Part shown: piece by piece, positions 16,654-22,727 of the stretch
Position numbering within the stretch: the stretch's first letter is position 1
How the letters are laid out: each line of letters opens with the position of its first letter
Source: Novipirellula herctigrandis
GTDB lineage: Bacteria; Planctomycetota; Planctomycetia; Pirellulales; Pirellulaceae
Direction: 5' to 3'
DNA: 52,393 bases
NCBI GenBank assembly: GCA_007859835.1
Contig: SJPJ01000001.1
Span: forward strand, 5,385,377-5,437,769
Made by a program: the position numbers and the translations under genes
The notes under the pieces: generated by a model
Databases searched by the model: none
What the model was told of the DNA's origin: nothing
The model's input: only the letters and a program-made list of their open reading frames with translations

Positions 16654-17583
16654 TTACGAACGGTGGTCATTGATGCGCATTGATGTTTGTCGATATTGAC
16701 TCGGTGTCTTTCCCATGATGCCGCGAAATTGGCGAGAAAAATAGTTGCTGTCGCTAAACCCGACTTCAAACGCAATCTCCGTCACGCTCATTTGCGTGCT
16801 TCGCAATAGTTCGGCGGCTTTGGCGATGCGGATTTTTAATAGATAGGCAATCGGCGTACGTCCGGTCGCGGTGCGAAACGCCCGTAAGTAACTTCGACGC
16901 GACATTCGCGATACGCTGATCAAGTCCTTTAGTTGAAGAGGGTCCGCATAGTGAGTCTCGATGTATGTAATGGTCTCGGCGAGGCGAAGGAGTGAGATGG
17001 AATCCGATCCCTCGCTATTTCCGTAGCAACGAGACAAGTGAGCCGTCAATTGCATAAAGATTGCCGTGGCCGTAAAGCCAAACGCCTTGTCGCGTCGCTT
17101 CAGCTCGCCTTCGAGTTGGTTGACTAGGCCGATGGTGGTGGTTAGGTCTCGGGCGGTCAGTCGCAATCGGCTTTCGAATTGGTGCCTTTGTCGCCACGCC
17201 GGTTCGAGATGAAAAAGCGCATGGTACCCCGGCAGTGACGGCAGGTCATAAAGTTGCATGTCAATCGATGCGGGGTCGAAGAGTATATTGATCAATCGAA
17301 GTTGATCCATGTTCACGTAATCGTGTGGTCGCGACCCGCCGATCACGAAGGCATCCCCTGGAGAAAGCTCCCAAGCGTCTTTGCCAGTGATGTGTAGCCC
17401 CGATCCACCGGTAACGATCACAATTTCGCAAAAGTCGTGGCAATGAATCCCAAACGGCTCTTGAGGGTCGCGACGTTGGACATTGATTGGAAATCCATCG
17501 GCGTCAAACCAATCCTCTCGGCGCAGGACGGGGATGGTCGCACTTTCGGTTTCTGTTTCGGTGTTTGGTGGCAGAGATGTCAT
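16654..17583 (-). CDS. AraC-family regulator (RhaS/RhaR-like)
   Basis: A 309-residue transcription factor. The N-terminal half is a cupin sugar-sensing domain (FGIHCHDFCEIVIVTGGSG, LSPGDAFVIGGSRPHDY). The C-terminal 100 residues hold two helix-turn-helix motifs, with SVSRMSRRSYLRAFRTATG and the signature MSVTEIAFEVGFSDSNYFSRQFRGIMGKTPSQYR. The layout is that of RhaS/RhaR, the L-rhamnose regulators. It is divergent from an alpha-L-rhamnosidase gene, so control of that gene by rhamnose is the obvious guess. ATG 17583 gives the usual length; a longer frame from 17685 adds 34 low-complexity residues. Confidence 0.88.
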   Translation of the reverse strand: MTSLPPNTETETESATIPVLRREDWFDADGFPINVQRRDPQEPFGIHCHDFCEIVIVTGGSGLHITGKDAWELSPGDAFVIGGSRPHDYVNMDQLRLINILFDPASIDMQLYDLPSLPGYHALFHLEPAWRQRHQFESRLRLTARDLTTTIGLVNQLEGELKRRDKAFGFTATAIFMQLTAHLSRCYGNSEGSDSISLLRLAETITYIETHYADPLQLKDLISVSRMSRRSYLRAFRTATGRTPIAYLLKIRIAKAAELLRSTQMSVTEIAFEVGFSDSNYFSRQFRGIMGKTPSQYRQTSMRINDHRS

Positions 17584-17889
17584 GTGACGATTGTTCAGGT
17601 GGGATCCACCGCTGGATAGAAGGGGTAGACGTACAGACTGTTGAGGCACCACTATCGTACTTTGAATGGGATGGTGATGCCCCATGGGTGGCGAGTGTTT
17701 TTGGCACGATTGTCCTGGTTGTGCGGCACTCAGGTGAAGGTTTCGCGACCCGATAGCACTATTCTGTATTTTTGGAGATGGCGCACTCTACAACGATTGC
17801 TTCGCTTTTGAATGTTGGATTGGTGAAGTTTTCTTGCGTGAATGCCAATTGGAGCTGGTCGCAAACCCTTGCTTGAGAATTACTCACTG
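17584..17889. promoter_or_regulatory. araC / rhamnosidase control region
   Basis: A 306-base divergent promoter region. The 7-mer ACGATTG occurs three times on the plus strand (17587-17593, 17706-17712, 17793-17799), each followed by pyrimidines, which could be half-sites for the AraC-type regulator. CAGGTG also occurs twice. No clear -35/-10 pair can be named. Confidence 0.35.
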
Positions 17890-20800
17890 ATGAATCGTCT
17901 TTGGATCACCTTTGTTGTTTACTCGTTTGTTTGTCTGTGTGTCGGTTTTGGGTTTGCGGAGTCGCCAATCGGTGCGATGATGCCGTCCGATCTTCGCAGT
18001 GAGTATCGTGAGAATCCGCTTGGGCTCGATATTTTGCGTCCAAGGTTAAGTTGGAAGGTCGCGTCCGCTAACCAGGGTGATTCACAAGCCGCCTATCGTA
18101 TCTTAGTGGCATCGACTGCCCAAATTCTCAATGCAAATCAAGGCGATTTGTGGGACTCCGGAAGAGTCGATTCGGGGCAAACTCTCTTTGTCGAATATGA
18201 CGGCAAGCCGCTTCCTGCCCGCCAAGTGTGTTTTTGGAAAGTTCGGGTTTGGTCCGAACGTGAATCCGAAGCTCAGTGGAGTGAGCCCGCAAAGTGGACG
18301 ATGGGGTTGCTGGACGAGTCGGATTGGTCAGCCGACTACATAAGCTATCGTGACGAATCGCCAATCTATTCCGATACGAAAAGCTTGTACTTGCCATCGG
18401 CACGCCAATATCGCAAAGATTTTGAAGCGGCAAAGCAAATTAAACGTGCGACGGTTTATGCAACCGCTCTTGGTATCTACGAATTGCATCTCAATGGCAA
18501 ACGAGTTGGCGATGCCTATTTTGCTCCTGGTTGGACCGACTATCGACAACGAGCTTATTACAACACCTACGACGTAACGGATCAGGTTCGTCTTGGTGAA
18601 AATGCGATCGGAGCTTGGGTGGCCGACGGATGGTATAGCGGATACGTCGGTTTCGGGTTGCTGACTGGAATTGGAACCGAAAAAACGGGACGCGCAACCT
18701 ACGGGAAGACACCTTCGTTGATGGCCCAGCTTGAGATCGAATATAGCGATGGTACGCGCGAAGTGGTTGCAACGGACAAGTCCTGGAAAGTGACTGGCGA
18801 AGGACCGATCCAAGAGGCCGACTTGTTGATGGGGGAATCCTATGATGCACGTAATGAGATGTCGGGTTGGTCGACCGCCGATTTTGATGATAGTCATTGG
18901 CCACAAGCGATTGCAGCGAAAGACAATGGATCGATTACCGCAGACTTTTATCAGTACCGAAATCCCAACGGGGCAGGGCAGGGCGTCACCAAGGTTGGGA
19001 CGCCGTGTGAATTCGGATTCCAAAAGCCGAAACTTGAGTCGTTTCCCGGTTTGCCGGTTCGCATGATCGAAAAAATTCCGTCCAAGAAGATTTCTCGCCG
19101 CGGACCAGGGGAATTTATTTTCGATCTCGGGCAAAACTTTGCGGGTGTGATTCGATTGAAAGTGAAAGGCCCCAAGGGCCAAAAGATTCAGATCCGCTAT
19201 GGTGAAATGTTGCATCCCGACGGCCGCCTGATGACCGAAAATCTTCGTAAGGCGCGGGCAACGGATTTCTATATCTGTAACGGTGATCCGAACGGCGAAA
19301 CCTACCAGCCTCGCTTCACGTTCCATGGATTCCAGTATGTTGAACTAGAAAATTTTCCTGGCGAGCCAACGCTTGATACCGTCACCGGTTTGGTAATGCA
19401 TAGTGACACGCCAATGACCAGTAAGTTCGAATGCAGCGACCCGATGGTCAACCGGCTTTACCAGAACGTGCTTTGGACTCAGAGGGCAAACTTTCTCGAA
19501 TTGCCGACCGATTGTCCGCAACGCGATGAGCGAATGGGATGGACCGGCGACGCCCAGGCCTACGTTGCAACGGCGGCCTACAACTCCGACATCGGAGCGT
19601 TCTACACCAAGTGGCTTCGCGAATTGATGGAATCCCAGCGACCTAGTGGTGCGTTTCCCGGTTATGCCCCGTTCCCGTTCCAACATGGCCAAGACTTCGG
19701 AACCGCCTGGGCGGATGCCGGCGTGATCTGCCCTTGGACGATTTGGCAAGTCTACGGGGATACTCGTGTGATCGAGCAGTGTTGGGAACCTATGACACGG
19801 TTTATGCAGTGGCGCAAGACAACGAGTGTCGATGATTTAGGGATTGTGCATGGCAATCAATGGGGCGATTGGTTAGCACAAGGTGCTAGCACTCCGCTGG
19901 ACTTTATCGATACGGTCTACTTTGCAATCTCATCTAAGATGATGTCGGAAATGGCCGAAGCCATTGGTCGAAGCGACGAAGCCGTCCAACATGGCGAACA
20001 ATTTGAAAAGACAAAAGCCGCCTTCCAAGCGAAGTACGTTCAAGGCGATGGCAGCGTGAATGTGAATACACAAACCGCTCACGCACTGGCCTTGTTCGCG
20101 GACCTTGTTCCAGTTGACAAACGCGAAGCGACCGGTCGCCACTTAGCCAAAATGTTGGCTGAGAATGGAAACCACATGGCAACCGGTTTTCTTGGAACGA
20201 GGCCGTTGTTGCCGGTATTGTCCGATTCAGGCCAGAACGACTTGGCGGTTTTCTTATTGCAATCGCGAGAATTTCCGTCCTGGGGATACGAAATCTCCAA
20301 TGGGGCGACGACGATCTGGGAACGGTGGGACAGCTATACCAAAGCAGACGCGTTTGGCCGGCACAATGCCGCGATGAATTCGTTCTCGCACTACGCATTT
20401 GGTGCCGTTTGTGAATGGATGTTCCGCACGTTGGCTGGGATCGAATCGGATGGTCCTGGCTACAAAAAGATCCGCATTGCGCCTAATCCCCCGATGCCCG
20501 GCAGCAACGCGTTGCACACGCCGATCGATTGGGTCAAAGCGTCCTACGATTCTATCCGTGGAGAAATATGTAGCGAATGGAAATTGAAGGATGGACACTT
20601 TCAACTCAATGTGACCATCCCGACTAACACAACCGCCACGGTTGTCTTGCCAACCACGAAAGCCGATAGCACAACTACCAAAAGTGGGAACGATGGTGAT
20701 GTGTCAGCTCACGTGAAATTTGTCCGTGCCTTTGGTGATCGGGCTGTGTTTCAGGTTGATTCGGGCGAATACCAGTTCACGACGGTCTACGAACCCAAAG

Positions 20801-21321
20801 CGAAGGTGGTAGCACTGACAACCTCAACGCCCAAGGACCGTTCGGTCAATCCAGACGGAATCGATCTGAGCGGTGCAAAAGAAGTCGTGAGTTGGGATTT
20901 TGGAAAAGCAACTGATCGAGCGAAATGGAGTGAGCGAAATAATACAGAGATTGAAGTACGCGATGGCAAAGTCTATCTGGTCGGTACCGGTAGCGATCCT
21001 CAAATTGCCACGACGCTATCGAACCCTTGTTCGGGATCATTGGTGATTTGTTTACGCGCGAAACCTTCCAAAGCTTCGTCAAGTCAATTTTTTTGGGCGG
21101 GGCCATCGCGTTCATTTAACGGAGCCGAACAATCCAAACGAAGATTGGCCGCATCAGATCAATTCAACGACTATTTGTTTTCAATCGCTGGCAACGGACC
21201 GATTGGAAAGCTTCGCTTCGACCCCTTCGAGGCATACGATGAGCACAGCGATTCGAAGCAATTGCTGATTGAATCGATTAAGCTCTTCGAGCTACCCGAA
21301 AAAAAAAAGAACAGCCCGTAA
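17890..21321 (+). CDS. Alpha-L-rhamnosidase (GH78)
   Basis: A 1143-residue exported enzyme expected to release alpha-linked L-rhamnose. After a signal peptide (MNRLWITFVVYSFVCLCVGF) come the N-terminal Ig-like and CBM67-type beta domains of GH78 (PIGAMMPSDLRSEYRENPLG, GIYELHLNGKRVGDAYFAPG), then the (alpha/alpha)6 barrel with the acidic motif TDCPQRDERMGWTGDAQAY at about 540-558 and NGATTIWERWDSY. A C-terminal beta domain follows, then an extra region of about 120 residues (VVSWDFGKATDRAKW...) resembling small carbohydrate-binding folds. ATG 17890 begins the signal peptide. The frame ends just after ten A residues (21299-21308); one extra A would read on into the sulfatase that follows. Confidence 0.93.
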   Translation: MNRLWITFVVYSFVCLCVGFGFAESPIGAMMPSDLRSEYRENPLGLDILRPRLSWKVASANQGDSQAAYRILVASTAQILNANQGDLWDSGRVDSGQTLFVEYDGKPLPARQVCFWKVRVWSERESEAQWSEPAKWTMGLLDESDWSADYISYRDESPIYSDTKSLYLPSARQYRKDFEAAKQIKRATVYATALGIYELHLNGKRVGDAYFAPGWTDYRQRAYYNTYDVTDQVRLGENAIGAWVADGWYSGYVGFGLLTGIGTEKTGRATYGKTPSLMAQLEIEYSDGTREVVATDKSWKVTGEGPIQEADLLMGESYDARNEMSGWSTADFDDSHWPQAIAAKDNGSITADFYQYRNPNGAGQGVTKVGTPCEFGFQKPKLESFPGLPVRMIEKIPSKKISRRGPGEFIFDLGQNFAGVIRLKVKGPKGQKIQIRYGEMLHPDGRLMTENLRKARATDFYICNGDPNGETYQPRFTFHGFQYVELENFPGEPTLDTVTGLVMHSDTPMTSKFECSDPMVNRLYQNVLWTQRANFLELPTDCPQRDERMGWTGDAQAYVATAAYNSDIGAFYTKWLRELMESQRPSGAFPGYAPFPFQHGQDFGTAWADAGVICPWTIWQVYGDTRVIEQCWEPMTRFMQWRKTTSVDDLGIVHGNQWGDWLAQGASTPLDFIDTVYFAISSKMMSEMAEAIGRSDEAVQHGEQFEKTKAAFQAKYVQGDGSVNVNTQTAHALALFADLVPVDKREATGRHLAKMLAENGNHMATGFLGTRPLLPVLSDSGQNDLAVFLLQSREFPSWGYEISNGATTIWERWDSYTKADAFGRHNAAMNSFSHYAFGAVCEWMFRTLAGIESDGPGYKKIRIAPNPPMPGSNALHTPIDWVKASYDSIRGEICSEWKLKDGHFQLNVTIPTNTTATVVLPTTKADSTTTKSGNDGDVSAHVKFVRAFGDRAVFQVDSGEYQFTTVYEPKAKVVALTTSTPKDRSVNPDGIDLSGAKEVVSWDFGKATDRAKWSERNNTEIEVRDGKVYLVGTGSDPQIATTLSNPCSGSLVICLRAKPSKASSSQFFWAGPSRSFNGAEQSKRRLAASDQFNDYLFSIAGNGPIGKLRFDPFEAYDEHSDSKQLLIESIKLFELPEKKKNSP
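21299..21308 (+). other. A10 slippery tract at rhamnosidase/sulfatase junction
   Basis: Ten consecutive A residues inside the last codons of the rhamnosidase (GAA AAA AAA AAG). In the frame of the next domain the same bases read AAA AAA AAA GAA. A gain of one A, by polymerase slippage or a sequencing error, or a -1 ribosomal shift, joins the two frames into one protein of 1612 residues. Confidence 0.8.
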
Positions 21322-22727
21322 CTGAGAATGGTCATACGGGTCGCTCCTCGCATCCGAACATCTTATTCGTTCTGACCGAAGACCAAGGTGCCCACACCCG
21401 TTTTCTCGGTACGCCAGGGCTTCGGACGCCGCACATGGATTCGCTGGCTAAATCAGGGACGTATTTCAAGAATGCGTTCGTTGCGTATCCGGTTTGTTCG
21501 GCATCCAAAGCGGCGTTCTATACGGGGCTACATAGCCATACCAATGGTATTCTCAACAATACCCATAACTATCACAAACCCGCCGAGCGAGTAACCGAAG
21601 AAGAACGCAATCGCCGGCTAGCGATAATTAACCGCGTCCGAGATGAGTTTGTCACGATGACCGAAATTCTCAAACGCAATGGTTATTATCAGGGTGTTAC
21701 TCACAAATTGCATGTCTATCCGAATGAAAAGTTCCCTTACGACGAGTTTCTGCATGGCAGACGAGCCGAGCTATCAGGTTTTCTCAATCGGGCAAAGAAG
21801 CGGGGGCAGCCATGGTTTTTGATGGTCAATATCGCAAATTCGCATCGGCCCTATCCCAATAGCGACAAAAAATCGATTCGTGTGAGTCCGACGGATGTGG
21901 AGTTGCCAAAATACTTGCCCGATTCTCCGGTCATTCGCAAAGATTGGGCCGAGTACTTAGCCGCCATCGAAGAAACGGACGCCTTGACGGGCGAAGCGAT
22001 CGACGTGCTTGACCAATCGGGGCAAAGGGAAAACACGATCATCGTCTTTATGAGCGATCATGGACCGACTTTCCAACACGGCAAGATGACTCTCTATGAC
22101 CTAGGTTTGCGAGTTCCGTTGTCCTTTAGTGGACCGGGAATCAAGAAAGGCCAAGTCAGCGATGCGTTGATCAGTGAACTTGATTTGCTTCCGACGTTGG
22201 TTGATCTTTGTCAGCTTGAATCGCCAATCGACTATCCGCTTCATGGACAATCAATGGCAGCTGTGCTTCGTGGTCAGCCGAATGAGAATCCGCGAGAGTA
22301 TGTGTTTGCTGAGATTTCCAATTTGGGGCCGTTACCCAACGATGGTATCCAAGAGCGGAGCGTTTTTGATGGACGTTGGAAATTGATCTATCGTGAAAAC
22401 GTCGAAAAGAAGTGGCGTCAGGTCAACGCTGACAGCCGGCAATTCAAAACCTGGGGCAATCGAACCTATGCTGAAACGATACGGTTGAAAGATAAGTTTC
22501 CACGCCAGTTCCAAATCCTTGTCGAAATGGATCCGCAAAACTTCGACGCTTCGGTGCCACCGTTGGAATTATACGATTTAGCGTCGGATCCTGATGAGAT
22601 GAATAATCTGGCTAGCGATGAGCGGTTTGCCAAAAATCTCGCCCGGCTTCAGAACGCTCTGGTTCAGTGGTGCAAAGCGACCGATGATTCGTCGTTAAGG
22701 TTGCACCAAGAAATCGCGACACCTTAG
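21309..22727 (+). CDS. Sulfatase (S1 family), no start codon of its own
   Basis: A complete arylsulfatase-type domain of about 458 residues beginning HPNILFVLTEDQG at 21351. It has the metal-binding TEDQG, the formylglycine site YPVCSASKAAFYTG (Cys codon 21495; Lys stands where CxPxR or CxAxR has Arg), the metal motif VFMSDHGP, and ELYDLASDPDEMNNLA near the end. The frame is open from 21282 across the A10 tract but has no ATG, GTG or TTG before 21435. Starting at 21435 would remove the first strand and its metal ligands and leaves no signal peptide. So it probably works as the C-terminal half of a rhamnosidase-sulfatase fusion. Its TAG overlaps the convergent priA TAA. Confidence 0.8.
   Translation, partial: EQPVTENGHTGRSSHPNILFVLTEDQGAHTRFLGTPGLRTPHMDSLAKSGTYFKNAFVAYPVCSASKAAFYTGLHSHTNGILNNTHNYHKPAERVTEEERNRRLAIINRVRDEFVTMTEILKRNGYYQGVTHKLHVYPNEKFPYDEFLHGRRAELSGFLNRAKKRGQPWFLMVNIANSHRPYPNSDKKSIRVSPTDVELPKYLPDSPVIRKDWAEYLAAIEETDALTGEAIDVLDQSGQRENTIIVFMSDHGPTFQHGKMTLYDLGLRVPLSFSGPGIKKGQVSDALISELDLLPTLVDLCQLESPIDYPLHGQSMAAVLRGQPNENPREYVFAEISNLGPLPNDGIQERSVFDGRWKLIYRENVEKKWRQVNADSRQFKTWGNRTYAETIRLKDKFPRQFQILVEMDPQNFDASVPPLELYDLASDPDEMNNLASDERFAKNLARLQNALVQWCKATDDSSLRLHQEIATP

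Follow-up and report, generated by a model that had tools for sequence, protein, structure and literature searches.

A ten-adenine run between a rhamnosidase and a -1 frame sulfatase in Novipirellula herctigrandis: a probable transcriptional slippage site

The rhamnosidase, the A10 run and the sulfatase frame

The window considered here is a stretch of 52,393 nucleotides (nt) from Novipirellula herctigrandis (contig SJPJ01000001.1, positions 5,385,377 to 5,437,769 of the forward strand), whose genome of 9.5 Mb (G000) belongs to the Pirellulaceae. Its subject is a run of ten A residues (A10) that lies between a GH78 alpha-L-rhamnosidase gene and a sulfatase reading frame, all on the forward strand. 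The rhamnosidase occupies an open reading frame (ORF) of 1159 amino acids at 17842..21321, and its Pfam set, which covers the six-hairpin domain of rhamnosidases and the domains on its N- and C-terminal sides, comprises PF17389 (1.5e-124), PF08531, PF25788, PF05592, and PF17390; the nearest solved chain is 3w5m. The start is more likely the ATG at 17890, giving a protein that begins MNRLWITFVVYSFVCLCVGFGFAES... with a Sec-type leader judged by eye. The A10 run, exactly ten A with a G directly after, lies at 21299..21308. The GH78 protein ends with ...LPEKKKNSP, four codons separating the run from the TAA stop at 21319..21321, and the third (+1) frame meets a stop five codons past the run. In the -1 frame, an ORF of 481 codons at 21282..22727, whose translation begins ALRATRKKKEQPVTENGHTGRSSHPNILFVLTEDQG..., holds a complete S1 sulfatase (PF00884, 3.2e-41; catalytic domain at about 21351-22697). 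This frame has no ATG, GTG, or TTG ahead of the ATG at 21435, which is already past the first conserved block (ILFVLTEDQG), and no hydrophobic leader was found before the sulfatase core, where the top 12-residue Kyte-Doolittle mean is -1.3. An earlier sequence-only reading of this DNA had placed ten A's four codons before the GH78 stop and a complete sulfatase without start or signal peptide in the -1 frame; both descriptions were confirmed.

Sulfatases carry the active-site motif C/S-x-P/A-x-R. In the window the corresponding motif is CSASK (21495..21509), with Lys at the position that is usually Arg; PVCSASK is present in 18 of the 20 family rows and CSPSK in the other two. The nearest solved sulfatase is 9bb9, an S1_8A chain (E 3.9e-54, residues 17-471), and judged by this nearest chain over the whole domain, the window sulfatase is S1_8-like. 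An assignment to S1_25, the type of Formosa P36, was rejected, as 6hr5 ('Alpha-L-rhamnosidase/sulfatase (GH78)', 2.6e-26) ranks seventh behind four S1_8 chains, 4mhx, and 9hh3. An AraC-type regulator at 16654-17685, divergent from the GH78 gene, is a candidate regulator of the pair.

Relatives and upkeep of the pair

Twenty relatives of the sulfatase were obtained by scanning GTDB species genomes with a peptide pattern, and the family search at a cut-off of E 1e-90 found a match in 13 of 241 genomes, the window genome counted. In N. pilleata Pla100 (L033), a strain available from public collections that belongs to a second genus of the same family, a GH78 protein (64% protein identity) and a sulfatase (60%) are joined at an A10 run (L033 6008-6017), with the sulfatase again in the -1 frame. 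The flanks of the two junctions have diverged, and the run begins at codon position 2 in the window and at codon position 1 in N. pilleata. In genome G221 (L071), also of the window's family, the same two protein families follow each other in the same order as a single in-frame fusion of 1662 codons, the linker of which contains no A run longer than five. The rhamnosidase-sulfatase fusion that the sequence-only reading regarded as the likely product is supported by two relatives, one with an A10/-1 junction and one with a true fusion. In G195, the GH78 and sulfatase genes lie side by side as two distinct genes, the sulfatase bearing a leader of its own. A class-wide search of 397 genomes brought two more relatives (G059 and G498), each of which has a leader and no junction. 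The R. rubra relative of the sulfatase (L034 6001-7385) is broken by several stops.

A hydrophobic leader is present in all 13 stand-alone sulfatases examined (13 of the 17 in the tree), with top 12-residue hydropathy means from 1.86 to 2.79; the corresponding values are -0.5 for the N. pilleata sulfatase and -0.25 for that of G221. Relatives with a separate, leader-bearing sulfatase had been put forward as potential evidence against a fusion. Such relatives do exist, but because the sulfatase is intact here and a true fusion exists in G221, we take them to indicate that the window copy has probably lost its leader and not that the fusion is refuted. On the rhamnosidase side, a search at a cut-off of E 1e-200 found 32 genomes, and 30 loci were examined, the window included. 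No A run longer than six occurs in the 27 other GH78 loci, from 90 nt before to 60 nt after the stop (three of these fall short of the homologous C-terminus, as L211 stops early and L212 and L213 are without the last domain). A10 is found only at the two loci with an out-of-frame sulfatase, so that the comparison with related genomes proposed in the sequence-only reading came out in favor of a link between the run and the -1 sulfatase.

The sulfatase has been well maintained. Of 99 residues that are invariant across 17 stand-alone sulfatase rows, the window copy keeps 96, the N. pilleata copy 95, and the G221 copy 93, and the stop-free frame in N. pilleata extends over 495 codons. Codon differences between the window and G235 sulfatases are concentrated at third positions (106/73/266 at first, second, and third positions), with proportions of nonsynonymous and synonymous differences of 0.19 (pN) and 0.79 (pS, saturated). 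Branch lengths in the sulfatase tree are 0.65 for N. pilleata, 0.43 for G221, and 0.33 for the window, the last equal to that of the stand-alone G195 copy. In the gene trees of both GH78 and sulfatase, the window and N. pilleata sequences do not group together. A clade of these two was rejected in the sulfatase tree (approximately unbiased (AU) test, p 0.0146) and not in the GH78 tree (0.205), and a clade that also includes G221 was rejected by neither (AU p 0.18 and 0.135). At most, this hints at an independent, convergent origin of the joint in the two genomes, as far as gene trees can tell.

A10 runs across ten genomes

All runs of nine or more A residues were scanned in the window genome (63) and in N. 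pilleata (26). Runs of A10 or longer number 11 in the 9.5 Mb of the window genome, two of them A11, and four in the 8.5 Mb of N. pilleata, and one of these few sits at the GH78/sulfatase junction in each genome. As A10 runs are rare in both genomes, the arrangement is not due to chance. Eight further genomes were chosen because they carry GH78, sulfatase, or GH2 relatives, and all of their 30 A10 runs were fetched. A run was counted as lying within a long frame when at least 180 codons were open on either side of it; the definition of a junction already includes an early stop of the upstream frame, which is therefore no evidence in itself. Read as sense A, the 45 runs of at least A10 in the ten genomes fall inside long frames in 19 cases, at junctions in six, and elsewhere in 20; read as sense T, all 45 fall elsewhere. 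The bias is 25:0, or 8:0 when counted by kind of site. All 25 long-frame and junction runs are exactly A10, and each is placed outside the Pfam domains, either between two of them or after the final one. By contrast, the 74 A9 runs of the window genome and N. pilleata include seven inside long frames (five sense A and two sense T) and no junction, and at least one of them (L116) sits within the catalytic domain of a GH2 enzyme, unlike the 25 A10 sites.

The 25 sites comprise dnaX (10), giant proteins resembling nonribosomal peptide synthetases (NRPSs, 4), polyketide synthases (PKSs, 3), ThuA/DUF7133 (3), GH78/sulfatase (2), and one each of sulfatase/GH2, SASA esterase/GH95, and phosphonate-binding protein/PQQ propeller. 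In dnaX, the A10 run is in frame in ten of ten genomes, and both slipped frames meet a stop within one to six codons (20 of 20 frames); in the control from the same long-ORF set, the median distance to a stop is 20 codons, with 18.5% of stops within five codons and 31% within ten. By sequence, this is the layout of the Thermus dnaX slippage site: transcriptional slippage at A9 is described for T. thermophilus dnaX (PMC1088944, PMC3711429), and dnaX genes with A10 and two ORFs have been reported by Antonov et al. (PMC3711429). Because stops follow in both frames, slippage of the RNA polymerase fits dnaX better than -1 ribosomal slippage. The third frame at the junctions also closes quickly, within seven codons in six of six.

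Five of the junctions, in four genomes, are of the -1 type, and the sixth, ThuA/DUF7133 in L214, is +1 by its Pfam-supported ThuA frame (it was first counted as -1 via an uncharacterized frame). The A10 sites between ThuA and DUF7133 in three genera, all near positions 2001-2010 of their loci, occur in phase 0 (L242), -1 (L235), and +1 (L214). The +1 site could therefore not be read by a -1 ribosomal shift, and a slipping polymerase could give the long form in all three phases. The window genome itself has a second -1 junction (L084), at which a sulfatase ending with ...VKKKG is followed by a leaderless GH2 in the -1 frame. A 75% relative of this GH2 in G002 has its own leader; this GH2 stands beside none of the seven other close relatives of the L084 sulfatase within flanks of about 1.5 kb, and this junction is known from one genome.

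Several of the remaining sites, again near 2001-2010 of their loci, may be described briefly. The NRPS-like sites (L078, L087, L221, and L230) are in-frame A10 runs in the linker between aminotransferase and condensation domains, the rest of which has diverged, and slippage there would yield a truncated synthase. In L088, L217, and L227, from three genomes, an in-frame A10 joins the carrier domain of a PKS to a KR domain, and in L229 it lies between an SASA acetylesterase and a GH95-like domain. The phosphonate-binding protein of L224 terminates at A10, with a PQQ_2 propeller next in the -1 frame. In L223, A10 occurs in a gene that looks integrase-like by eye, the next part being in a different frame. 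In N. pilleata, an A9 run (L161, 2001-2009) forms a -1 junction between the HTH_32 and DDE_3 halves of a transposase that misses the 180-codon limits. Also outside these limits, runs of A10 or longer near gene starts are found as sense A in L081, L219, L233, and L237 and as sense T in L082 and perhaps in L080, L215, and L243. In L081, L233, and L237, A10 (near 2001-2010) is close to the start of a long ORF, in the latter two ahead of a CEPR- or LETR-type motif, and slippage would waste part of the output. From the scan of A9 or longer runs, L160, L124, and L086 were set aside since, respectively, the upstream ORF ends before the run, an in-frame ORF spans the run, and the run is antisense to dnaX. 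In-frame matches obtained with looser limits of 100 and 60 codons (L082 and L236) were excluded as unproven frames.

Explanations of the junction and their meaning

We consider that the A10 run in the window is probably a programmed transcriptional slippage site, through which the gene yields the rhamnosidase in a short form and, as a longer product, a rhamnosidase-sulfatase. In this mechanism, RNA polymerase would turn A10 into transcripts of mixed A-run length. Transcripts with ten A (or nine) would reach a stop four to five codons past the run and provide a secreted rhamnosidase alone, and those with 11 A (or eight) would be read on into the sulfatase frame, yielding a rhamnosidase-KKK-sulfatase fusion. 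The fusion would be the only route seen here that gives the sulfatase a start and an export signal. What we infer from the letters of these genomes is that slippage takes place, is mostly transcriptional, and makes the two products in some ratio. The substrate is likewise suggested by analogy, the GH78 family and Formosa P36 (PMC8511951) pointing to a sulfated rhamnose-containing glycan, for which one promoter would supply two enzymes, one free and one tethered. The site is consistent with what characterizes transcriptional slippage, namely a sense homopolymer of about at least nine residues at the frame transition and, as seen in N. pilleata, a run that is kept while its flanks diverge.

Several observations weigh against slippage at this and the other sites. 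The nine in-frame sites other than dnaX are less clear, the slipped frames running for 0 to 16 codons before a stop (2-11 codons for NRPS, 2-9 for PKS, 0 and 6 for SASA/GH95, and 2 and 16 for ThuA). The N. pilleata sulfatase has an ATG (L033 6073) just upstream of PNILF, which makes a leaderless stand-alone product possible there. Moreover, part of the sense-A bias may exist because proteins tolerate Lys-rich linkers, where sense T would encode Phe-Phe-Phe. A T10 in L082, at roughly codon 31 of a frame of 600 codons, indicates that the bias is not absolute near gene starts. The 25 sites are not 25 independent events, since many are homologous, and the eight added genomes were selected for related genes.

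Programmed -1 ribosomal frameshifting, with or without a hairpin, at A_AAA_AAG in the window or A_AAA_AAA in N. pilleata would make the same fusion by another slipping machine, and both could contribute; as the main source of the fusion we think it unlikely, although it is the strongest of the alternatives. A structure that stimulates -1 frameshifting is expected a few nt downstream of the heptamer. In the window, the heptamer (21303..21309, within A10 and the next G in the GH78 frame; absent from the sequence-only reading) is followed after 4 nt by a weak predicted RNA hairpin (21314..21341), whose z-score of -0.92 is reached or undercut by 20% of 200 native control segments and does not support a stimulator. 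The downstream fold is strong in N. pilleata (z -2.7, 1% of controls as low) and moderate at the GH2 junction (z -1.65, 8.5% as low), both of which speak for the ribosome, but no shared RNA structure was consistently found among these three. In favor of ribosomal slippage, every A10 also contains an in-frame -1 heptamer, and the motif A_AAA_AAG is that at which E. coli dnaX slips (PMC3711429). On the other hand, A7 would be enough for -1 slippage, yet the sites carry A10, and the rapid stops in both slipped frames of dnaX and the ThuA site that requires +1 are as RNA polymerase slippage predicts.

Besides slippage, the sequence-only reading had allowed that the DNA contains A11 and the assembly is one A short, in which case the gene would be an ordinary constant fusion like that of G221. 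Assemblies often go wrong at homopolymers, and yet four genomes would have to share an identical error, at five -1 junctions in all. A11 was called elsewhere (two in the window genome, one in G195), none within a long ORF. The dnaX A10 is in frame in all ten genomes (all ten recovered if there is one dnaX per genome), and because it has the classic slippage layout there, slippage is favored and a sequencing error becomes very improbable. We give equally little credit to phase variation, by which slippage during DNA replication would alter the run and leave the gene fused in a subpopulation. Homopolymers in secreted and surface genes are typical of it (PMC3711429), but all 25 long-frame and junction sites among the runs of at least ten are exactly A10, the frame varies through the flanks and not the run length, and dnaX, with the same run, would be an unlikely phase-variable gene. 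That the sulfatase is a decaying remnant after deletion or recombination of its leader, with an incidental A10, is the least credible idea: the plainly broken R. rubra copy shows that loss occurs and the N. pilleata and G221 branches are long (the window branch is not), but the open frames, the preserved invariant residues, the third-position excess, and the presence of A10 in two genera argue otherwise.

Known systems offer partial parallels. In E. coli reporters, frameshift efficiency for one gene family was 10% with A7, 40% with A9, and 63% with A11 (PMC3711429), and other cited cases of slippage are spa13 (A10), the mur genes of Buchnera (A10), and tssM (PMC6260861; PMC4256274). Like Thermus dnaX, the window has a sense-strand poly-A run with short and long products proposed, and in the relatives' own dnaX genes A10 is followed by a stop in either slipped frame; it differs in that two enzymes that fold separately are connected by the joint, which would give the second its start and export signal. 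In tssM1 of Citrobacter rodentium, a poly-A run (A11) lies just upstream of the stop, added A's give the full-length form, and both forms are needed (PMC4256274), but there it is one interrupted protein, whereas a complete extra enzyme is appended in the window. Formosa agariphila P36 combines a GH78 and a sulfatase in one protein that performs consecutive steps on ulvan oligosaccharides (PMC8511951). The parallel with this enzyme drawn in the sequence-only reading holds for function and not for the sulfatase subfamily, since P36, described as one multidomain protein, has an S1_25 sulfatase and that of the window is nearer to S1_8A. G221 shares families and order with the window but is a constant fusion. 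Among the open-access literature matches listed, no report of slippage in planctomycetes was found, and one match names Planctomycetes only in a table. The A10 joint is real and recurrent and may be a device used across the family.

Whether A10 serves more generally in the Pirellulaceae as a transcriptional joint, sitting where domains meet in secreted carbohydrate enzymes, in large modular synthases, and in dnaX and allowing one gene to encode both a short and a long product in whichever phase the second module lies, is a question on which the sequence comparison leaves us evenly divided. If it does, fusions of secreted-enzyme genes can arise and persist without ever being in frame. If slippage occurs in the window, one gene would deliver a polysaccharide-degrading enzyme pair in both free and tethered form, and gene callers that follow a single frame would present the second enzyme as a fragment lacking a start or a leader. 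Programmed slippage, which the cited literature places in insertion sequence elements, dnaX, and secretion genes, would then extend to catabolic and biosynthetic genes across a whole bacterial family.

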